Source of the DNA: Betaproteobacteria bacterium SCN1
GTDB lineage: Bacteria > Pseudomonadota > Gammaproteobacteria > Burkholderiales > Thiobacillaceae
Reading direction: 5' to 3'
DNA: 64,000 nucleotides
Assembly: GCA_008923315.1 (NCBI GenBank)
Contig: WBSF01000007.1
Coordinates: 650,247 to 714,246, forward strand
The translations under genes and the position numbers were made by a program. Positions 10,932-22,047 of the stretch are shown piece by piece. The notes below the pieces were generated by a model. The model searched no databases. It was not told the DNA's origin and saw nothing but the letters and a program-made list of their open reading frames with translations. The number at the start of each line of letters is the position of its first letter. Within the stretch, counting starts at the first letter, position 1.

Positions 10932-11428
10932 ATGCCGCTCCCCACGAAACCGGCAGCTGGCGGCGTATCGCCGGCACGCTGACGCTGGCCGTGCTGCTGA
11001 CCGAATTGCCCTGGGACGGCTGGGCGTTGTCGTTGCGGCCCGATTTCATTCTTGTCGTCGTCCTGTTCTGGGTGCTGCATCAACCCGCGCGCGTCGGATT
11101 CGGGATCGCGTTCATGCTGGGACTGCTGGCCGATTTCCAGGACGGCGTCGTGTTCGGTCAGCACGCCATTGCCTATGCCCTCGGGGTCTATCTGGTGCTG
11201 TTCCTGCGCGTGCGCCTGCTGCGTTTCGACCCCCTGCGGCAGGCAGCGCAGATGTTCCCCATTCTGCTGGCCGTGCAACTGGCGGCGATGCTGGCCGGCT
11301 GGCTGGCGGTCGAGCCACCGCAGGGCCTGGCGATCCTGCTGCCGGTGCCGTCGAGCGTCCTCCTGTGGTATGCCATCGCGCTTTTCCGGCGGGCCTGGCA
11401 TGGCAAGAGCCTGCGGGATGCCGAATGA
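10928..11428 (+). CDS. mreD: Rod shape-determining protein MreD
   Basis: 166 aa from ATG 10928, which overlaps the mreC stop (ATGA). Strongly hydrophobic with about five membrane segments, including the family block LLADFQDGVVFGQHAIAYAL near residues 64-83. MreD is the integral-membrane partner of MreC. It overlaps mrdA by 4 nt. Confidence 0.94.
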   Translation: MNAAPHETGSWRRIAGTLTLAVLLTELPWDGWALSLRPDFILVVVLFWVLHQPARVGFGIAFMLGLLADFQDGVVFGQHAIAYALGVYLVLFLRVRLLRFDPLRQAAQMFPILLAVQLAAMLAGWLAVEPPQGLAILLPVPSSVLLWYAIALFRRAWHGKSLRDAE

Positions 11429-13320
11429 GCGTCGTTGCGTCGCTCAAGAATCTCGACCGCGAGCTGACGCGCTTTCATGGCCGGCTCAAGGCGGGGGCGC
11501 TCTTTGTGGCATTGCTGGCGGCGGTATTGCTGGCGCGCGGCTACTACCTGCAGGTGGACCAGCATGACTATTACATCCAGCGGGCGGAGAGCAACCGCAT
11601 TTCGCTGGTACCGACCGCGCCCAACCGCGGGCTGATTCTCGACCACAAGGGGCGCATCCTGGCGGAAAACTATTCCGCCTACACGCTGGAGATCGCGCGT
11701 GCGCAGACCGCCGATCTGGAGGCGACGCTGGCGGAAGTGGGCGCGCTGATCGAGATCACGCCCGGCCAGTTGCGGCGCTTCCGGCGCCTGCTCGGCGAAT
11801 CGCACGAATTCGAGACGGTGCCGCTGAAAAGCAAGCTGACCGACGAAGAAGTGGCGATTCTCGCGGCCAATCGCTATCGCCTGCCCGGCGTCGAAGTCAA
11901 GGCGCGGCTGTTCCGCAATTACCAGGCGGGGCCGGGGATGGCGCATGTGGTCGGCTTCATCGGCCGCATCAACGACAGCGACCTGAAAAAACTGCGGGAA
12001 AGCGGCCGCGAGCGAAACTACAAGGGCAGCGTGCACATCGGCAAGACCGGTCTGGAGCAGAGCTACGAAGCCCTGCTGCACGGACGTACCGGCTTCGACC
12101 AGATGGAAACCGATGCCAGCGGCCGCGCGGTGCGCATGCTGTCGCGCATTCCGCCGGTGCCGGGCAAGGATCTCCGGCTGTATCTCGATCTCGATCTGCA
12201 GGCCGTGGCGGAGCATGCCTTCGGCGATTATCTGGGCGGGCTGGTGGCGCTCGATCCCCGTACCGGCGGCGTGCTCGCGATGGTGTCCCGGCCGGGGTTC
12301 GATCCCAATCTCTTCGTCGACGGGATCGATCCCGAAGCCTGGAAAGGGCTCAACGAATCGCCCGAGCGGCCGATGGTCAACCGCGTGCTGCGCGGCATCT
12401 ATCCGCCGGGCTCGACGATCAAGCCGCTGATGGCGCTGGCCGGTCTGGAACTGGGGATACGCAAGCCGGGCGACAGCATCGTCGATCCGGGCTATTTCAC
12501 GTTGCCCAACAGCCGTCACCAGTATCGCGACTGGAAGCGCGGTGGCCACGGTGTGGTCGATCTGCGCAAGTCCATCGCGCAGTCCTGCGATACCTACTAT
12601 TACCGGCTTGCGGTGGACATGGGCATCGACCGCATGCACGACTACCTCGCGCAATTCGGCTTCGGCGAAAAGTCCGGCATCGATCTTGAGGGCGAGTCGT
12701 CCGGGCTGCTGCCTTCGCGCGACTGGAAGCAGCGGCGCTGGAAAAAGCCCTGGTATCCCGGCGAAACCGTCATCGCCGGCATCGGCCAGGGCTATCATCT
12801 GACCACGCCGCTGCAGCTCGTGACCGCGACGGCGATGCTTGCCAACGGCGGCAGGCGCATCGAACCGCGTCTGGTGGAGGCGATCCGCGATCCGTTCAGC
12901 CACGCCTGGCAACCGTTGCCGCCCACGGTGCACGGCCAGGTGAAAATCGATCCGGCCAATCTGGCCGAGGTGCGTGAAGGCATGCTGGACGTGATGCGGC
13001 CGGGCGGTACCGCGGTGGTCGCAGCTGCCGGTGCGGCCTATGCCATCGCCGGCAAGACCGGGACCGCGCAGGTGGTGGGTATCAAGCAGGGCGCCCGCTA
13101 CGACGAAAGCAAACTGGCGCGCCACCATCGCGACCATGCGCTGTTCATCGCCTATGCGCCGGCCGACGATCCGAAGATCGCGATCGCCGTGCTGGTCGAA
13201 AACGGCGGACACGGCGGCGGTACGGCCGCGCCGATCGCGCGGGCGGTCATGGACTATTACCTGACCGGGAAGCGGCCCGGCACGATGAAACTGGAGGCGA
13301 CGAGCGATGGCGCGGATTGA
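11425..13320 (+). CDS. mrdA: Penicillin-binding protein 2 (elongasome transpeptidase)
   Basis: 631 aa from ATG 11425, again an ATGA overlap with mreD. One N-terminal membrane helix (about 24-42), a PBP dimerisation/pedestal domain beginning with PTAPNRGLILDHKGRILAEN, then the transpeptidase domain. The active-site motifs are complete: Ser330-Thr-Ile-Lys333, Ser387-Cys-Asp389 and Lys544-Thr-Gly546. It cross-links new peptidoglycan during rod elongation with RodA, whose gene follows with a 14-nt overlap. Confidence 0.96.
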   Translation: MSVVASLKNLDRELTRFHGRLKAGALFVALLAAVLLARGYYLQVDQHDYYIQRAESNRISLVPTAPNRGLILDHKGRILAENYSAYTLEIARAQTADLEATLAEVGALIEITPGQLRRFRRLLGESHEFETVPLKSKLTDEEVAILAANRYRLPGVEVKARLFRNYQAGPGMAHVVGFIGRINDSDLKKLRESGRERNYKGSVHIGKTGLEQSYEALLHGRTGFDQMETDASGRAVRMLSRIPPVPGKDLRLYLDLDLQAVAEHAFGDYLGGLVALDPRTGGVLAMVSRPGFDPNLFVDGIDPEAWKGLNESPERPMVNRVLRGIYPPGSTIKPLMALAGLELGIRKPGDSIVDPGYFTLPNSRHQYRDWKRGGHGVVDLRKSIAQSCDTYYYRLAVDMGIDRMHDYLAQFGFGEKSGIDLEGESSGLLPSRDWKQRRWKKPWYPGETVIAGIGQGYHLTTPLQLVTATAMLANGGRRIEPRLVEAIRDPFSHAWQPLPPTVHGQVKIDPANLAEVREGMLDVMRPGGTAVVAAAGAAYAIAGKTGTAQVVGIKQGARYDESKLARHHRDHALFIAYAPADDPKIAIAVLVENGGHGGGTAAPIARAVMDYYLTGKRPGTMKLEATSDGAD

Positions 13321-14407
13321 GCGCGGCCCGATGCGCTGGCTGCGGCATCTGGACCCGATTCTGCTGATGCTGGTGCTGGCCGTTCTGGCGATCAGCGTCG
13401 CGGTGATGACGAGCGCGTCGGGGCAGAGTACCGCGCGCATCAGCGGCCATCTGATCAATATCGGCCTGGCGCTCGCGGTGATGGTCGTCATGGCCAATGT
13501 GCCGCCGCACCTGCTGTCCAAGGCGGGGCCGCCGCTCTACGTCGTGGGCGTGGTCCTGCTGGTCGGCGTCGCGCTGTTCGGCGAGATCCGCAACGGTTCG
13601 CGGCGCTGGCTGGATTTCGGCGTGATTGCCTTCCAGCCGTCCGAACTGCTCAAGCTGGCTTTGCCGCTGATGCTTGCCTGGTATTTCCAGCGCAACGAGG
13701 CGGTGCTCGGTTCGCGGCACTTCGCGATCGGTGGCGTGCTGCTGCTGCTGCCTTTCCTGCTGATCCTGCGTCAGCCCGATCTGGGTACGGCGCTGATGAT
13801 CGGCGCTTCCGGTTTCTATCTGCTCTTTTTCGCGGGCCTGCCCTGGAAGGTGATCCTCGCAGGCGGCGTGCTGGGTGGCGCGAGTCTGCCGCTCGCCTGG
13901 CGCTTCATGCATGACTACCAGCAGCAGCGCGTGCTGATGCTGCTCGATCCTTCGTCCGATCCGCTGGGCGCGGGCTATCACATCATCCAGTCGACCATCG
14001 CGATCGGCTCGGGCGGCCTGTTCGGCAAGGGCTGGATGGAGGGCACGCAGAACCAGCTCGATTTCATCCCGGAACGCACCACCGATTTCATCTTCGCCGT
14101 GTTCGGCGAGGAATTCGGCTATGTCGGCGCGATTCTGCTCGCGGCGCTGTATCTGGCCATCGTGGCGCGTGGCCTGACCATCGCCGCGCGGGCGCCCACG
14201 CAGTTCGGGCGCCTGATGGCGGCGACCCTGTCGTTGAACCTTTTCACCTACGTGTTCGTCAACATCGGCATGGTGTCGGGCATTTTGCCCGTAGTGGGCG
14301 TGCCTCTGCCGCTGATGAGCTACGGCGGTACCGCGCTGGTGACCCTGCTGCTGGGCATGGGTATCCTGATGAGCGTGGCGACGCACCGGCAGTTGAACAA
14401 GACCTGA
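13307..14407 (+). CDS. rodA: SEDS peptidoglycan glycosyltransferase RodA
   Basis: 366 aa, about ten membrane helices, the SEDS family polymerase that works with PBP2. Conserved blocks are NGSRRWLDFG and FQPSELLKLALPL (about residues 97-125), LRQPDLGTALMI (about 155-166) and the long loop with FIPERTTDFIFAVFGEEFG (about 257-275), which carries the catalytic Asp region. The C-terminal PLMSYGGTALVTLLLGMG is typical. Confidence 0.96.
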   Translation: MARIERGPMRWLRHLDPILLMLVLAVLAISVAVMTSASGQSTARISGHLINIGLALAVMVVMANVPPHLLSKAGPPLYVVGVVLLVGVALFGEIRNGSRRWLDFGVIAFQPSELLKLALPLMLAWYFQRNEAVLGSRHFAIGGVLLLLPFLLILRQPDLGTALMIGASGFYLLFFAGLPWKVILAGGVLGGASLPLAWRFMHDYQQQRVLMLLDPSSDPLGAGYHIIQSTIAIGSGGLFGKGWMEGTQNQLDFIPERTTDFIFAVFGEEFGYVGAILLAALYLAIVARGLTIAARAPTQFGRLMAATLSLNLFTYVFVNIGMVSGILPVVGVPLPLMSYGGTALVTLLLGMGILMSVATHRQLNKT

Positions 14408-14414
14408 CGATACA

Positions 14415-15248
14415 ATGCGATCCATGAAGCGCCTACTGATTCCGGTCGCGCTGGCGGCAACGCTCGCCGGATGCAGCACCCAGCCGTCCGCGCCTGGCAA
14501 GCCGTCCACGGCCTCGACTCAGCCCGGCGGCTACTATCTCGACGACGGTCCCGAGGCCAATCCGCCCGGCAATCTCGACGCGGTGCCGGACGCAGTGCCG
14601 CGCGACGAGCCGTTACACCGCTTCGCCAACCGGACCTATGTCGCGCTCGGCAATACCTACACGCCGACGACCGAGCGGGGCACGTATACGAAGGAGGGCG
14701 TCGCCTCATGGTATGGCCGCCGTTTTCACGGCAAGAAAACGGCCTCGGGCGAGCTGTACGACATGTACGCCATGACCGCCGCGCATCCCACGCTGCCGAT
14801 CCCGAGCTATGCGCGGGTCACTGCGCTCGACTCGGGCAAGTCTATCGTGGTGCGCATCAATGATCGCGGTCCTTTCCACAGCAAGCGCATCATCGATCTG
14901 TCGTACACCGCCGCGCACAAGCTCGGCCTGCTCGGACGCGGAAGTGGGCGCGTGCGCGTGGAAAGCCTCGATCCGGCCGATTCCGCCTTGCAGCAGGCAG
15001 GGGCGGAATCGCGCGGCGACATATACCTGCAGGTCGGTGCATTTTCTAGCGCTGACAACGCGCGTGCCCTGCGCGACCGGTTGAGCGGTGCGCTGGAACT
15101 GGATGCCGGGCGTACCCGTGTGGTGCAGTCGGGTGGCCTGCACCGCGTGCAGCTCGGGCCCTACGCGGACGACGCAGCCGCTCGGGTCGACCGGACGCGC
15201 GTGCGGGAACGTCTCGACTTGCCCGCGGTCCTGGTCAGACGCGATTGA
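14415..15248 (+). CDS. rlpA: Septal ring lytic transglycosylase RlpA-type lipoprotein
   Basis: 277 aa. The start may be ATG 14415 or ATG 14424 (MKRLLIP...), the latter giving a more typical lipoprotein signal. The lipobox LAGC (Cys near residue 19) predicts an outer-membrane lipoprotein. The double-psi beta-barrel follows with GVASWYGRRFHGKKTASGE, and RINDRGPF carries the catalytic Asp. A C-terminal SPOR domain (DIYLQVGAFSSADNARAL to the end) binds denuded septal glycan. It lies between rodA and the dacA-like gene as in many proteobacteria. Confidence 0.93.
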   Translation: MRSMKRLLIPVALAATLAGCSTQPSAPGKPSTASTQPGGYYLDDGPEANPPGNLDAVPDAVPRDEPLHRFANRTYVALGNTYTPTTERGTYTKEGVASWYGRRFHGKKTASGELYDMYAMTAAHPTLPIPSYARVTALDSGKSIVVRINDRGPFHSKRIIDLSYTAAHKLGLLGRGSGRVRVESLDPADSALQQAGAESRGDIYLQVGAFSSADNARALRDRLSGALELDAGRTRVVQSGGLHRVQLGPYADDAAARVDRTRVRERLDLPAVLVRRD

Positions 15249-15267: not shown

Positions 15268-16383
15268 ATGAAACGATTCTGGCTGGCCCTGCTGCTGGCG
15301 CTGTCCCTCCCGGCATGGGCCGCGCCGCCCGGTGTGAGCGCGCGCGCATGGGTGCTGATCGACCAGGCGAGCGGGCGCGAGCTGGCGGGACAGCAGGCCG
15401 ACCTGCCGCTGCCGCCCGCGTCGCTCACGCAGCTGATGACGGCTTACGTGCTGCTGGGGGATCTGCGCGGCAAGAAGCTTGCGCCAACGACCGCAGTGAC
15501 GGTGCCGGAGGCTGCGGCCCAGGTCGATGGCGCACGCGTGTTCCTCAAACCCGGCGACACGGTGACTGTCGATTTCCTGATGCAGGCGATGCTGGTCGAA
15601 TCGGCCAGCGATGCCGTGCATGCGCTGGTTTCGGCCACCGGCGACAGCGAGGCCGATTTCGTCGCCCGGATGAACGCCGAGGCCAAGCGCCTGGGCTTGA
15701 CGCGCACCCGGTTCACGAATGCGACCGGTCTGTCCCAGGCCGGGCACCAGTCCAGCGCGCGCGACATGGCCATCCTGGCGCGCGCGCTGATCCGCGATTT
15801 TCCCGCCCAGCTGACGCGCTTTGCGCAACGCGAGCTGGCCCACGGCGGCGTCACCTATTTCAACGGCAACCGCCTGCTCTGGCGCGACGCCACGGTGGAC
15901 GGACTCAAGGCCGGCCGCACGGCGGAAGCCGGGTATTGCCTCGCCGCTTCGGCCCGGCGCGGCGAGCAGCGTCGCATCGCGGTGGTGCTGGGCGCGCGCG
16001 GAGACGCGCAGCGTACGCAGGATGCCCTGCGTCTGCTCAACTACGGTTTCGAGAATTTCGACAGCGCCCGGCTGTATCGCGCGCAGCAGCCCGTCAAGGT
16101 GGTGGAACTGTACCGTGGCGCGCGGTCCACGGTGAGCCTGGGATTCCTCGAGGACTTCCACTTGCTGACACCGCGCGGCGCGCTGCCCCGGCTGAAGGCC
16201 GAGGTCGTGACCCAGCGGCCGCTGGTGGCGCCGGTCCGGCGCGGCCAGCCGCTCGGCACCCTGCGGCTTACGCTGGACGGCCAGGTACTGGGCGAATATC
16301 CGCTGGTGGCGCTGCACGACGTGTCCGTGGCCGGCATTCTGGGACGCGGCTGGGATTCGATCCGGCTGCTGTTCGGGCAATGA
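15268..16383 (+). CDS. dacA: DacA/PBP5-type D,D-carboxypeptidase homologue with altered active-site motifs (probable pseudoenzyme)
   Basis: 371 aa from ATG 15268, with signal peptide (MKRFWLALLLALSLPAWA). It aligns with PBP5/6: peptidase S11 domain followed by the PBP5 C-terminal beta domain and an amphipathic end. All three signature motifs are altered. SxxK reads Ser52-Leu-Thr-Gln55 (general-base Lys replaced), SxN reads Ser112-Ala-Ser114, and KTG reads Lys214-Ala-Gly216. The codons are unambiguous (CAG, AGC, GCC) and the frame is intact, so this is not a broken gene. D,D-carboxypeptidase activity should be lost or strongly changed. It may act as a structural or glycan-binding protein. It sits in the syntenic dacA slot and overlaps dat by 4 nt. 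Confidence 0.85.
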   Translation: MKRFWLALLLALSLPAWAAPPGVSARAWVLIDQASGRELAGQQADLPLPPASLTQLMTAYVLLGDLRGKKLAPTTAVTVPEAAAQVDGARVFLKPGDTVTVDFLMQAMLVESASDAVHALVSATGDSEADFVARMNAEAKRLGLTRTRFTNATGLSQAGHQSSARDMAILARALIRDFPAQLTRFAQRELAHGGVTYFNGNRLLWRDATVDGLKAGRTAEAGYCLAASARRGEQRRIAVVLGARGDAQRTQDALRLLNYGFENFDSARLYRAQQPVKVVELYRGARSTVSLGFLEDFHLLTPRGALPRLKAEVVTQRPLVAPVRRGQPLGTLRLTLDGQVLGEYPLVALHDVSVAGILGRGWDSIRLLFGQ

Positions 16384-17243
16384 TCGCCTGGCTCGATGGC
16401 GCTTTCCTGCCGCTCGCCGAGGCGCGGGTGTCCGTGCTGGATCGCGGCTTTCTGTTTGGCGATGGCGTCTACGAGATCGTGCCGGTCTATTCGCGGCGGG
16501 CGTTCCGGCTCGACGAGCATCTGCGCCGGCTGCAGCACAGCCTTGACGGCATCCGCCTGGCCAACCCGATGGCGCCCGGCGACTGGCGCGGATTGATCAG
16601 CGATCTCGTCGCGCGCCAGGATTTCGACGATCAGTCGCTCTACATCCAGATCACGCGCGGCGTGCCGGCCGAAGGCCAGCCGCTGCGCGACCATGCTTTT
16701 CCCGCCGCTGCGCGGCCTACGGTCTTCGTCTACGCGCAGCCGCTCAGGACGGCGGCGCCCGAACAGAAAGCGGCCGGCGTATGCGCCGTCACCGCGACCG
16801 ACCCGCGCTGGCAGCACTGCGACATCAAGGCCATTTCGCTGTTGGCCAATGTGCTGATGCGCCAGCAGGCGGTCGACGCCGGTTGCGCGGAGACAGTCAT
16901 GCTGCGCGACGGTTTTCTCACCGAGGGGGCCGCGAGCAATATCTTCGTGGTGGCCGGCGGCCTCTTGCTTGCGCCGCCACCGTCCCCACATATGCTGACA
17001 GGCATTACCTACGATGTGGTGCTGGAACTGGCCGCCGCGCACGCGATTCCGCATGCCGTGCGGCCTGTATCCGAAGCAGAGCTGCGTGCGGCCGACGAGA
17101 TATGGATGACATCCTCGACCCGGGAGATCATGGCTGTCGTGCGCCTCGACGGCGAGACGGTGGGGGCGGGCGTGCCCGGTCCCGTGGCGCGCCGCATGGA
17201 TGCCTGCTATCAGCAATTCAAACGGGACGTGATGCGCGCATGA
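16380..17243 (+). CDS. dat: D-amino-acid aminotransferase (PLP fold-type IV)
   Basis: 287 aa from ATG 16380, which overlaps the dacA-like stop; a much longer in-frame extension upstream is only an alternate frame of dacA. Fold-type IV aminotransferase features: LDRGFLFGDGVYEIVPVY at about 20-37, the PLP lysine in DIKAISLLANVLMRQQA (about 141), EGAASNIFVV and MTSSTREIMAV. It interconverts D-Ala and D-Glu; branched-chain or 4-amino-4-deoxychorismate activity cannot be excluded. This dacA-dat-DUF493-lipB order is typical of betaproteobacteria. Confidence 0.9.
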   Translation: MIAWLDGAFLPLAEARVSVLDRGFLFGDGVYEIVPVYSRRAFRLDEHLRRLQHSLDGIRLANPMAPGDWRGLISDLVARQDFDDQSLYIQITRGVPAEGQPLRDHAFPAAARPTVFVYAQPLRTAAPEQKAAGVCAVTATDPRWQHCDIKAISLLANVLMRQQAVDAGCAETVMLRDGFLTEGAASNIFVVAGGLLLAPPPSPHMLTGITYDVVLELAAAHAIPHAVRPVSEAELRAADEIWMTSSTREIMAVVRLDGETVGAGVPGPVARRMDACYQQFKRDVMRA

Positions 17244-17506
17244 ACGAACAAGAGACCCTGCTGGTTTTTCCCACCGACTTCCCGATCAAGGTGATGGGCG
17301 AGAGGCGCGACGATTTCGCCCGCACCGTGATCGAGATCGTGCGGCGCCACGCGCCGGACTTCCGGCCCGAAACGGTCGAGCTGCGTGCGTCGTCGAGCGG
17401 TAACTATCTATCGGTGACCTGCGTCGTGCGCGCCACCTCCAAAGCGCAGCTCGATGCGCTGTACCGGGATGTGACTGCCCACCCCTGGGTCAAGGTTGCG
17501 CTGTGA
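17240..17506 (+). CDS. DUF493 (YbeD-like) protein
   Basis: 88 aa, the usual size of YbeD. Family signatures are the N-terminal [14 protein letters not shown] and the C-terminal [23 protein letters not shown], giving an ACT-like alpha/beta fold. Its biochemical role is unsettled. Conserved position between dacA/dat and lipB. ATG 17240 overlaps the dat stop by 4 nt. Confidence 0.93.
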
Positions 17507-17513
17507 GCGCGCC

Positions 17514-18125
17514 GTGAACGGCCGGGACACAGTCGTCCGGCATCTGGGCCGCGTCGACTACGCGCCGATCTGGCAGGCGATGCGGGATTTCACCGCCCGC
17601 CGCGACGCGGCCACGCCGGACGAACTCTGGCTGCTGGAGCATCCGCCCGTCTTCACGCAGGGACAGGCCGGCAAAGCCGAGCACCTCATCGCGCCGACCG
17701 CGATTCCGGTCGTGCCCATCGATCGGGGCGGGCAGATTACCTACCACGGCCCCGGCCAGCTCGTGGCCTATGTGCTGATCGATCTCAAGCGCCGCGGCTA
17801 CGGCATCCGCGAGCTGGTAACGCGTCTCGAACAGGCGGTGATCGATCTGCTGGCCGCGCAGGGCGTCGCCGCGGCGCGGCGGTCCGGGGCGCCTGGCGTC
17901 TACGTCGACGGCGCCAAGATCGCCGCGCTCGGCCTGCGCGTGAAGCAGGGCCGCACCTACCATGGCCTCGCGCTCAACGTGGATATGGACCTGGCGCCGT
18001 TTTCCCTGATCAATCCCTGCGGCTATCCGGGGCTGGCAGTGACCCAGTGCCGGGATGTGGGGGCAAATCTGTCGATGGCGCAGACGGAGCAAGCGCTTAC
18101 CGATGCATTGCGATGCGTCTTATAG
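17514..18125 (+). CDS. lipB: Octanoyl-ACP:protein N-octanoyltransferase
   Basis: 203 aa from GTG 17514; a TTG at 17496 would add six residues and overlap the previous gene. It transfers octanoate from ACP to lipoyl domains. Visible motifs: [15 protein letters not shown] (about residues 71-85), the catalytic Lys in [15 protein letters not shown] (about 128-142), a THGLALNV-like segment ([11 protein letters not shown]) and the Cys in NPCGYPG. LipA, the next enzyme, is encoded 2 kb downstream rather than directly after it. Confidence 0.94.
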
Positions 18126-18182: not shown

Positions 18183-19298
18183 ATGAGTACCGACACCCTG
18201 CCGTCCGATCCCAAGCTGCTGATGCGCTCGATCATCCAGCGCATCGCCACGGGCCCCGATCTGTCCAAGGACATCAGCCGCGTCGAGGCGCATCTGGGGA
18301 CCAAGGCCATCATCGACAACCTGATCGATCCGGTGCAGGTGGGCATCTATTTCATCGCCCTGCGGATGAAGCGCGAAACCCAGGACGAGAACCGCGGCGT
18401 GCTCGACGCTGTGCTGGAGACCACGCGCCGCGTGACCGCCGAGGTGGACGAAGTCGTCGACATCGGCGACCCCTACGACGGCTATAACCGCTGCCTGCCT
18501 GCCGCGCCCTTTCTCGGCCCGCTGCTGGCCGAGCTCGGTGTGCATGTCGTGTCGCACGGGCTCGACAAGGTAGGGCCCAAGTACGGCGTCACCGTGCGCC
18601 ATATCCTCGAAGCGGCCGGGGTGCCGGTGAACCTGTCGCCGACCGAGGCCGCCGCCCGGCTGGCCGATCCCGCGCTCGGCTGGACCTACGTCGACCAGGC
18701 GCAGTCCAACCCCGGCATGCACAATCTGATCACCCTGCGGGCGCAGATGATCAAACGCCAGGTGCTGACCACGGTGGAAGTGCTGTCCAAGCCCATCCAG
18801 GGCAGAAAGCAGACCCACTTCGTCACCGGCTATGTGCACAAACCCTACCCGCCGGTGTACGCCGACCTTGCCCGCGAAGCCGGCTTCGACACCGCCTGCA
18901 TCGTGCGCGGCGTCGAGGGTGGGGTGATTCCCAGCCTGCGCCAGGCCGGCAAGTATTTCCACTACCACGACCGCGGCGAGGAAATCGAAGCCAAGATCGA
19001 CCCGGTCGCGCTGGGTATCGACCAGCCCGTGCGCGCCGTTCCCCTGCCGGGCTCGGTCGCCGGCGAGGCGGGCGAGGACGAGATCGTCGCCGCCATCGAC
19101 ATCCCGGCCACGGCGCGTGCCGCAGCCGAGGCCGGCATTCTGGCGCTGAAGGGCGAGAAGGGACCGACCTACGATTCGCTGGTGCTGGCCGGGGCCATTG
19201 TTCTCCACCACGTCGGCCGTGCCGCGGATCTGGCCGACGCGGCTGCGCAGATTCGCGCCGTGCTGGATTCCGGCAAGGCTGCCGCGCGGGTGCAATGA
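18183..19298 (+). CDS. Anthranilate phosphoribosyltransferase-like (TrpD-family) protein of unknown substrate
   Basis: 371 aa. The N-terminal helical part (dLS...ALRMKRETQDENRGVLDAV, residues 20-80) and the later alpha/beta domain resemble TrpD and nucleoside phosphorylase class II folds. The canonical GTGGD PRPP loop is not seen; the equivalent region reads IGDPYDGYNR. No trp gene is nearby. It probably does not make tryptophan. It overlaps the Rieske gene by 4 nt and sits between lipB and lipA, so a link to electron transfer or lipoate metabolism is possible but only positional. Start is supported by GAGGAG. Confidence 0.65.
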   Translation: MSTDTLPSDPKLLMRSIIQRIATGPDLSKDISRVEAHLGTKAIIDNLIDPVQVGIYFIALRMKRETQDENRGVLDAVLETTRRVTAEVDEVVDIGDPYDGYNRCLPAAPFLGPLLAELGVHVVSHGLDKVGPKYGVTVRHILEAAGVPVNLSPTEAAARLADPALGWTYVDQAQSNPGMHNLITLRAQMIKRQVLTTVEVLSKPIQGRKQTHFVTGYVHKPYPPVYADLAREAGFDTACIVRGVEGGVIPSLRQAGKYFHYHDRGEEIEAKIDPVALGIDQPVRAVPLPGSVAGEAGEDEIVAAIDIPATARAAAEAGILALKGEKGPTYDSLVLAGAIVLHHVGRAADLADAAAQIRAVLDSGKAAARVQ

Positions 19299-20215: not shown

Positions 20216-21148
20216 ATGGCAGACCCGCTACAGCACAAAGGCGCCGCCAAGACCGCGCGCATTCCGATCAAGATCGTGCCGCAGGAACGCATGCGGCTGC
20301 CGCCGTGGATTCGCGCCAAGGCGCCGAACCTGCCCAACGTCGTCCGGCTGAAGGGCATTCTGCGCGAGGCGAAACTGCACACCGTGTGCGAGGAGGCCTC
20401 GTGCCCGAACCTCGGCGAATGCTTCGGCCACGGCACGGCCACCTTCATGATCCTTGGCGATCTTTGCACCCGCCGCTGTCCGTTCTGCGATGTCGGCCAC
20501 GGCACGCCGCTGCCGCCCGACGCGGACGAACCGCGTCATCTTGCCGAGACCATTGCGGCGATGGCGCTGAAATACGTGGTCATCACCAGCGTCGACCGCG
20601 ACGACCTGCGCGACGGCGGGGCGCAGCACTTCGTCGACTGCATCCGCGCGACACGCGCAGCCTCGCCGGCCACCCGCATCGAGATTCTGACACCCGATTT
20701 CCGTGGGCGGCTGGACAAGGCGCTCGCCATTCTGGGGGAGGCGCCGCCCGACGTGATGAACCACAACCTCGAAACCGTGCCGCGCCTGTACAAGGCTGCC
20801 CGGCCAGGTGCGGACTATGCGCACTCGCTGAAACTGCTGAAGGATTTCAAGGCCGCGCATCCCGGCGTGCCGACCAAGTCCGGCCTGATGCTGGGGCTGG
20901 GCGAGGAGGACGACGAGATTCTGGCGGTGATGCGCGACCTGCGCGCGCACGACGTCGAGATGCTCACGCTCGGACAGTACCTCCAGCCTTCACAGCATCA
21001 TCTGCCGGTGTTGCGCTTCGTTACCCCCGAGCGCTTTGCGCAGTTCGAGCGGGAAGCCCTGGCGATGGGGTTCACCAATGCGGCCTGCGGCCCGATGGTG
21101 CGCTCGAGCTACCACGCCGACCAGCAGGCGGCCGGCGTCGCCGCCTAG
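20216..21148 (+). CDS. lipA: Lipoyl synthase (radical SAM)
   Basis: 310 aa from ATG 20216. It inserts two sulfurs into protein-bound octanoate. The auxiliary cluster motif [12 protein letters not shown] (CX4CX5C), the radical-SAM motif CTRRCPFCD (CX3CX2C) and the C-terminal RSSYHA serine ligand are all intact. A TAAAAT at 20185-20190 could be its -10. Its TAG stop shares a CTAG palindrome with the stop of the convergent PEP-CTERM gene. Confidence 0.97.
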
Positions 21149-22047
21149 TGCCCGGGCGCGCCAGCCGGGCGCCGGCGCCGGCCGGCGAACAGGGCCGCCG
21201 CGCCCAGCAGCAGGAGGCCGATCACGGACGGCTCGGGCACGGCCGCCAGTTGCCGGGTCGACGGACTGCCCGATGGCGTGCTGTCCGACAGGGTGTCGCC
21301 CGGACCGCTCGTATCCGGTAGCGTGCCGGCCGGGAGCAGCGGATCCTTGTCGAGTGACGGAGACCCGTTCCCCGGTCCGGTATCCTTTTCTTCGTCGGAT
21401 TTCTTTTGCGGCGGCGTGTCGTCCGCAAGCTTATCCGGGGTGTCCTCTTCCGCTTTCCCGCCTCCTGTTTGCGTCTGCTTTTTGCCGTCGTCCGCAGGCG
21501 CCGTGCCGGTCGGCGGCTTGGGCGTGACCAGGTCGTCCTTGCCGGCCGGTGGATGCGAAGGCATGCCGGGCCCCGCCGCTGGGGGCAGGTGCGGCGCTGC
21601 GGGGCCGCCCGGACCGGCAACGAGCGGTCCCGGGCCGGGCGGCCCGGATTTGCCGGTGCGCGGCATGGCGTAAGGGGCGCCAGAGCCCGGTACCGATCCG
21701 GCGGGCGGAACGGCCAGTTCGAACGGTGCGCCCTGCGGCAGCCCGCCCGGCGCGGTTTCATGCAGTGCGACCGGCAGGTTTCCGCCGGACGGCCCGGTGA
21801 CGATGCCGGGCGTGCCTCCGTGCGGAACCGGTGTATCCAGTCCGGGCGCCGTGTCAGGCCTGGAGCCGCGCGGATCGGTGCGCCGCGGATCGTCGAGATG
21901 TTTGCCGGCCATGATGGCGCCCAGTGCGAGCGCGGCTGTGGCGCTGCCGGCGATGATGGTGCCGGCAGGGGTCAGCAGGGCGGCGAGGAGTGTCGCGAGC
22001 AGACCGGCGCGGCGAGCGCGGCGGCGGGAAACGGTGCGATTGGACAT
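21145..22047 (-). CDS. PEP-CTERM sorting-signal protein, Pro/Gly-rich
   Basis: 300 aa. The C-terminus is a textbook PEP-CTERM signal: Val270-Pro-Glu-Pro273, a hydrophobic helix (about 274-289), a four-Arg cluster and a 7-residue tail. This predicts recognition and cleavage by the exosortase A encoded at 35512-37047. The N-terminus has an Arg-rich segment and a hydrophobic stretch (about 15-47). The middle (50-265) is low complexity, rich in Pro, Gly and Thr, then charged with Asp/Glu/Lys, has no Cys and is probably disordered; it could be a glycosylated matrix protein. A strong sigma-54 promoter lies just upstream. Tail-to-tail 4-nt overlap with lipA. Confidence 0.93.

Follow-up and report, generated by a model that had tools for sequence, protein, structure and literature searches.

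PBP5, encoded by dacA, is the major DD-carboxypeptidase of Escherichia coli and belongs to peptidase family S11, with catalytic residues in three boxes, SxxK, SxN and KTG. In the PBP5/DacA family KSG is tolerated in place of KTG, and the MEROPS database lists S11 homologues that are not peptidases, so that members devoid of catalytic residues are known in principle. Here we describe a gene in which all three boxes are altered, and which we call pseudo-dacA. It lies at the rod locus in a 64,000-nucleotide stretch of the genome of Betaproteobacteria bacterium SCN1 (contig WBSF01000007.1 of assembly GCA_008923315.1, positions 650,247 to 714,246), which is referred to below as the window and to which all coordinates refer. 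Judged by its sequence, the protein is very probably under selection without being a DD-carboxypeptidase, and it is likely that a conserved pseudoenzyme arose from the native betaproteobacterial DacA of this locus on the stem of the genus Thiobacillus.

The closest described cases are E. coli cells carrying an inactive PBP5-type protein, namely PBP5(S44G), PBP6a(S66G) or PBP6b(S63G). These mutants are reported to show an altered dimer form and a changed localisation, with effects on cell shape for PBP5(S44G) (PMC2909392, PMC5596342). When the serine of PBP5 is replaced, penicillin binding and activity disappear and the protein shifts from midcell to the lateral wall (PMC2909392). Cells that lack PBP5 are reported to look nearly normal but those with the inactive form to bulge, and an inactive PBP5 would therefore have effects of its own (PMC5596342). 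The same study contains the proposal that PBP6a (DacC), a catalytic protein with the active-site residue Ser66, protects the fifth D-Ala (PMC5596342). A natural inactive PBP5 that is conserved in a lineage was not found described in the open-access literature, a scope that leaves most subscription papers outside.

Apart from its boxes, pseudo-dacA looks like an ordinary dacA. The first-pass annotation, made from the letters of the window, had read SLTQ, SAS and KAG in an intact frame with a C-terminal domain, and this was borne out by the 371-residue open reading frame, the domain matches and a gap-free alignment. The protein matches Peptidase_S11 (PF00768) with 205.4 bits against a cut-off of 27.6 and PBP5_C (PF07943) with 63.7 bits against 21.2, and has the PBP5 fold, as judged from its sequence and from a structural model. 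Its best solved relative is the Pseudomonas aeruginosa PBP5 (4k91_A, 266 bits), to which 339 residues align with zero gaps, SLTK, SGN and KTG of the Pseudomonas protein standing opposite SLTQ, SAS and KAG. The terminal helices are present in the structural model, in regions where the predicted local distance difference test (pLDDT) score is low, and the C-terminal tails are similar among the 12 Thiobacillus rows compared. The score of 236.7 against the NCBIfam DacA equivalog is below the cut-off of 694. We left this shortfall uncounted because we take that cut-off to be an enterobacterial one.

The alteration is found throughout the genus. SxxK is altered in 54 of 56 Thiobacillus genomes (SLTQ in 53, SLTH in one), the remaining two being without data, so the lysine of this box is absent from all 54 genomes that can be read. 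Searched as a DNA pattern, PASLTQ is present in 52 of the 56 and in none of 61 genomes from the other genera of the family. The four genomes without a match read PGSLTQ (G489) or SLTH (G018), have a contig that ends before the boxes (G486), or contain only the intact paralogue described below (G025, 81% complete). In the 37 Thiobacillus genomes that could be read fully all three boxes are altered (SLTQ in 36 and SLTH in one, SA[SGTAV] in 37, K[AV]G in 37), as they are in each of the 45 distinct sequences that were aligned, and the same locus occurs at 66-74% identity in named records, among them Thiobacillus denitrificans RG (L087) as well as T. thioparus DSM 505 (L099), on which ground we take the genus to be Thiobacillus. 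That the three boxes are an artefact of sequencing or assembly can practically be dismissed given this recurrence across the genus, named strains included; sequencing error had been one of the reservations attached to the original observation. Family-wide the PASLTQ pattern matches 52 of 117 genomes and in the sample of the order 4 of 399, in both cases all Thiobacillus. A pattern for a non-lysine codon starting with C, G or T matches 4 of 369 genomes of the class, one being the source genome and the other three loci lacking DacA by tblastn. Such patterns detect only changes of this kind with exact flanks, and missed G489, G018 and the genus g25 discussed below, so these counts do not measure how frequent dead DacA proteins are. 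Two Thiobacillus-type loci (L080 and L083) are filed under Sulfuriferula multivorans and Rhizobium sp., in what are probably mislabelled metagenome bins.

The claim that all three motifs are altered holds in every sequence, with the refinement that each box is changed in part. We compared the 45 altered sequences with 75 functional relatives, excluding five degenerate loci (L125, L135, L174, L179 and L186). The nucleophile Ser52, the first serine of SxN (Ser112), and Lys214 and Gly216 of KTG are invariant in all 45. What has been lost is Lys55 (Gln in 44, His in one), Asn114, retained in none (Ser in 30, Gly in 10, Val in three, Thr in one, Ala in one), and Thr215 (Val in 37, Ala in eight), while Gly113 is Ala in all 45. 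Two further positions have changed. Residue 200 is Arg in 99% of the functional relatives and Gly (33), Ala (8), Ser (2) or Asp (2) in Thiobacillus, and residue 217 is His in 59 of the 75 relatives and Arg in 44 of the 45, with His in the other one. In E. coli PBP5 we count the equivalent residues as Arg198 and His216, which presumably act near the substrate carboxylate. The altered pocket is still constrained: 67 columns reach 95% conservation or more among functional relatives, of which 47 still do so in Thiobacillus, and within the genus 105 of 370 columns do not vary at all. In the open-access literature we know of no homologue with these residues that is active.

Purifying selection on the altered protein is strong, and its rate of divergence is no higher than that of the intact paralogue. 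The ratio of non-synonymous to synonymous substitution rates (dN/dS) is 0.06-0.22, with a median of 0.125, over 15 close pairs whose rows are partly shared. This resembles the adjacent rlpA and dat genes, and RodA is lower in 11 of 14 measurable pairs. Over 171 pairs from 19 genomes with both copies read, protein identity averages 74.3% between altered copies and 73.1% between intact paralogues. The prediction of a conserved pseudoenzyme is thus upheld as far as conservation is concerned.

Phylogenetic analysis indicates that the catalytic residues were lost by descent from an ancestor whose motifs were intact. The altered clade groups with the family's own syntenic DacA and nests with motif-intact orthologues of the sister genera, its join with the two closest of these rows having support of 98 in an 82-row tree and 84 in a 125-row tree. 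The larger tree omitted L134 and L182 (internal stop in the matched stretch), L076, L106 and L113 (partial or split), any loci that were remote or PbpG-like, and rows identical to another. The stem of the altered clade is long (0.74 changes per column in the 125-row tree, 0.54 in the 82-row tree) and is followed by ordinary branches, which suggests a single burst of change and then maintenance. In the sister genera 19 genomes were searched and 18 could be read, G471 yielding only a fragment and a PbpG-like match. All 18 have SLTK and KTG, with SGN in 17 and SAN in one, and at least one of RodA, RlpA and Dat adjoins each of these genes.

The expectation that another carboxypeptidase would be encoded elsewhere is supported at the sequence level. 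The source genome (3.09 Mb, 100% complete) holds three S11 proteins: the altered copy, a PbpG-like protein with SITK, SDN and KTG (L003), and an intact PBP5-type protein with SLTK, SGN and KTG (L001, at C9:240021). An S13 protein (L163) is also present. The intact paralogue has the same three boxes in all 24 Thiobacillus genomes read (27 loci, including three repeats). Of 36 Thiobacillus genomes searched, 35 have an intact-type copy and 34 have both copies, the exceptions being G022 (75% complete), without the intact type, and G025, without the altered one. Sequence identity of the paralogue is 64% with P. aeruginosa PBP5 and about 41% with the altered protein. The 82-row tree places the paralogue within the gammaproteobacterial DacA proteins, with the P. 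aeruginosa row as its sister (support 100). The hypothesis that the intact copy arose through a duplication within the family was rejected (approximately unbiased test, p 0.0004), as was, more weakly, a sister relationship of the intact and altered copies (p 0.032). The intact paralogue is therefore not a duplicate, and its nesting beside P. aeruginosa PBP5 makes it likely that an ancestor of Thiobacillus obtained a Pseudomonas-type PBP5 by horizontal transfer. We infer that the acquisition came first and the loss later, both on the same stem.

A similar conversion has taken place in a second genus of the same order, here called g25 (family f25). Neither this nor the apparently foreign origin of the intact copy had been noted in the first-pass annotation. 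A DacA is encoded at the locus in 28 of its 31 genomes (not G871, G885 or G891; entries L225-L249, L179, L183 and L186); in two of the 28 a box is missing, SxxK in one and KTG in the other. KTG is lost in all 27 readable loci and the serine is replaced by His, Gln or Ala in 13 of 27, and the asparagine of SxN is kept in 27 of 28. The dN/dS values, which draw on 25 of the 28 loci, are 0 to 0.20 (11 of 12 pairs gave a value). A separate short S11 protein occurs in 22 of the 31 genomes, and the five read at their boxes are intact (L188, L190, L193, L250 and L251). In the 125-row tree three g25 rows fall within f25, far from Thiobacillus, so the two conversions are independent, and this repeat is the strongest hint that the DacA of the locus has a non-catalytic job. 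In other genera of f25 the boxes are intact in five of six genomes; in the sixth, G150, the serine has become alanine and KTG is kept. Among representatives of the whole order 18 of 20 DacA genes keep their boxes (one with SLAK), the exceptions being G057, where KTG is MSG, and G059, where the serine is histidine and KTG is ATG. In three of these 20 (L133, L134 and L138) none of the neighbour genes of the locus was seen.

The order of genes around pseudo-dacA is mrdA, mrdB, rlpA-like, pseudo-dacA, dat and lipB-like (Table 1). PBP2 and RodA had been described as active-looking, and in the translations both indeed look intact. Further along, an open reading frame at 21145-22047 on the minus strand has a tail of VPEP, a hydrophobic stretch and RRRR that resembles a PEP-CTERM sorting signal, which is our assumption from the motif. 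The gene at 18183-19298 on the plus strand encodes a TrpD/YbiB-like glycosyltransferase-family protein, which scores under every NCBIfam cut-off.

Table 1. Coordinates of pseudo-dacA, its parts and its neighbours in the window
Feature	Position	Strand	Basis
pseudo-dacA, PBP5/DacA-type, 371 aa, altered catalytic boxes	15268..16383	+	ATG 15268, stop 16381-16383, single open frame
putative N-terminal signal peptide, residues 1-19 (...SLPAWA-A)	15268..15324	+	translation; model helix 2-12, low pLDDT
SxxK box = SLTQ, residues 52-55	15421..15432	+	gap-free alignment to P. aeruginosa PBP5
SxN box = SAS, residues 112-114	15601..15609	+	gap-free alignment to P. aeruginosa PBP5
residue 200 = Gly (Arg in functional relatives)	15865..15867	+	genus alignment
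KTG box = KAG, residues 214-216, then Arg217	15907..15918 (KAG alone 15907-15915)	+	alignment
PBP5_C (stem) domain, residues 264-352	16057..16323	+	Pfam
putative amphipathic membrane anchor, formed by C-terminal helix 357-369	16336..16374	+	model secondary structure, low pLDDT
mrdA, PBP2, intact motifs STIK/SCD/KTG	11425..13320	+	TIGR03423, 776.6 bits against cut-off 455
mrdB, RodA	13307..14407	+	TIGR02210, 425.3 bits against cut-off 336.7
rlpA-like lipoprotein gene	14415..15248	+	translation, synteny; name presumed from a motif
dat, D-amino-acid transaminase-like	16380..17243	+	best NCBIfam matches under their cut-offs; ATG overlaps pseudo-dacA stop (ATGA)
lipB-like gene	17496..18125	+	translation, synteny; name presumed

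How might such a protein have come to be kept? In the explanation we favour, the acquired Pseudomonas-type PBP5 would have taken over catalysis in the ancestor of the genus, and the old DacA would have been kept for a non-enzymatic task that it already had. By analogy with the findings in E. coli, this task would most likely be that of a partner within the elongation machinery (PBP2, RodA and RlpA are encoded alongside) that is anchored in the membrane and does not cut. Such a partner might pair with the active PBP5 or with other proteins of the wall, or might bind stem peptides and leave them untrimmed. That the protein no longer releases D-Ala is something we infer from its residues. A role as a partner or in a dimer seems to us quite possible, and a role in holding stem peptides rather doubtful.

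The idea can be extended to betaproteobacteria more generally. We suggest, tentatively, that the DacA of the rod locus is bifunctional, combining trimming with a separate non-enzymatic role in elongation, and that its active site becomes dispensable once trimming is covered elsewhere, by the acquired PBP5 in Thiobacillus and by the short S11 protein or another enzyme in g25. Genus-wide loss would then have occurred at least twice, through different residues, and a similar loss may be starting in the single genomes G057 and G150.

There are several rival explanations. The altered protein might be needed solely as a partner of the active enzyme, forming mixed dimers with the acquired PBP5 that tune or place it and binding no peptide. 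We regard this as unlikely. In its favour, both genes are present in 34 of the 36 genomes searched, and E. coli PBP5 homodimerises, its inactive forms being read as a different dimer (PMC5596342). However, two proteins that are about 41% identical and apparently of different lineages are not assured of an inherited dimer interface, and the pocket is still constrained. Less probable again is a rewired enzyme, in which Ser52, Ser112 and Lys214 with the new Arg217 would make up a different active site for another bond or substrate, the role of proton shuttle passing from the SxxK lysine to the lysine and a serine on the KTG side. The invariance of Ser52, Ser112, Lys214 and Gly216 would fit this, as would the near-fixation of Gln55 and Arg217 (44 of 45 each), and the contrast with g25, which lost its serine in 13 of 27 readable loci, points the same way. 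That said, the joint loss of lysine, asparagine, threonine and Arg200 strips away what we take to be most of the known machinery, and the kept positions lie in structurally conserved stretches where 47 of 67 columns are retained anyway.

A redundant, decaying gene, with a frame kept only by translational coupling through the overlap of its stop with the dat start (16380-16383 in the window), is very improbable. The overlap speaks in its favour: with dat starts extrapolated from tblastn, it is found in 45 of 45 Thiobacillus loci (-4, ATGA, in 39 and -1 in six) and in five of 50 from other lineages (-4 in none, -1 in two, -7 in three). In G008 (L106) the altered dacA matches as two pieces, which may be an assembly error or a real break. 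The overlap could help to preserve the frame of pseudo-dacA, but coupling does not preserve amino acids, and both domains are intact in a protein with the low dN/dS reported above and with an identity on par with that of the intact paralogue.

Several observations weigh against the conversion of a native DacA to a non-cutting partner. Three pocket residues for which a pure scaffold would have no need, among them the nucleophile serine, are retained, and the variability of positions 114 and 215 argues against tight binding of stem peptides. Along the sequence, the 27 residues that are both derived and fixed are not significantly clustered (scan p 0.40-0.58), and they therefore do not point to a new interface; a count of derived residues in helix 246-263 gave p 0.04 a posteriori and was not used. 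On the phylogenetic side, the P. aeruginosa row is the sole close outgroup of the intact paralogue, and long branches lead to the rows from sister genera that lie closest to the altered clade. Inactivity is not neutral in E. coli either, since PBP5(S44G) is reported to leave the septum and disturb shape (PMC2909392, PMC5596342). Finally, four g25 genomes that are 99% complete (G872, L231; G882, L245; G886, L239; G890, L242) have a degenerate DacA at the locus and, in the P0001 search, a second S11 protein that is PbpG-like only, and the same is true of G057 (L125/L176, family f23) and G150 (L174, family f25). The handover to a second DacA-type S11 protein is therefore not general, and the suggestion of a bifunctional DacA is weakened accordingly.

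Despite these points we continue to prefer a conserved, non-catalytic descendant of the native DacA. Thiobacillus would then offer a natural separation, in which one PBP5 is kept apparently for non-catalytic work and another has intact motifs. There is also a practical consequence for annotation, namely that the syntenic "dacA" of Thiobacillus should not be labelled a carboxypeptidase.

The open-access literature searched, which leaves most subscription papers outside, yielded no description of a selected, genus-wide pseudo-PBP5 at the rod locus with a foreign intact counterpart and an independent recurrence in another genus. Several systems share parts of this picture. The active PBP5/DacA proteins of E. 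coli and P. aeruginosa share the fold, the domain order and the presumed signal peptide and C-terminal helix, and the position at the rod locus is as in the sister genera; they differ from the pseudo-dacA protein in that SxxK, SxN and KTG are altered in the latter and Arg200 and His217 are replaced. PBP6a resembles it in the idea of a carboxypeptidase-like stem binder that cuts poorly, but is a catalytic enzyme, and stem binding by the pseudo-dacA protein is putative. The E. coli mutants PBP5(S44G), PBP6a(S66G) and PBP6b(S63G) likewise place an inactive PBP5-type protein in the cell. However, these are engineered and lack the serine, whereas pseudo-dacA is natural, keeps the serine, has lost other residues and is selected genus-wide. 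The g25 protein is a further parallel, with the same dat-lipB neighbourhood, loss of catalytic residues throughout the genus and purifying selection, although the two genera have taken different routes: g25 loses KTG and often the serine and keeps the asparagine of SxN, whereas Thiobacillus keeps the serine and loses the asparagine.
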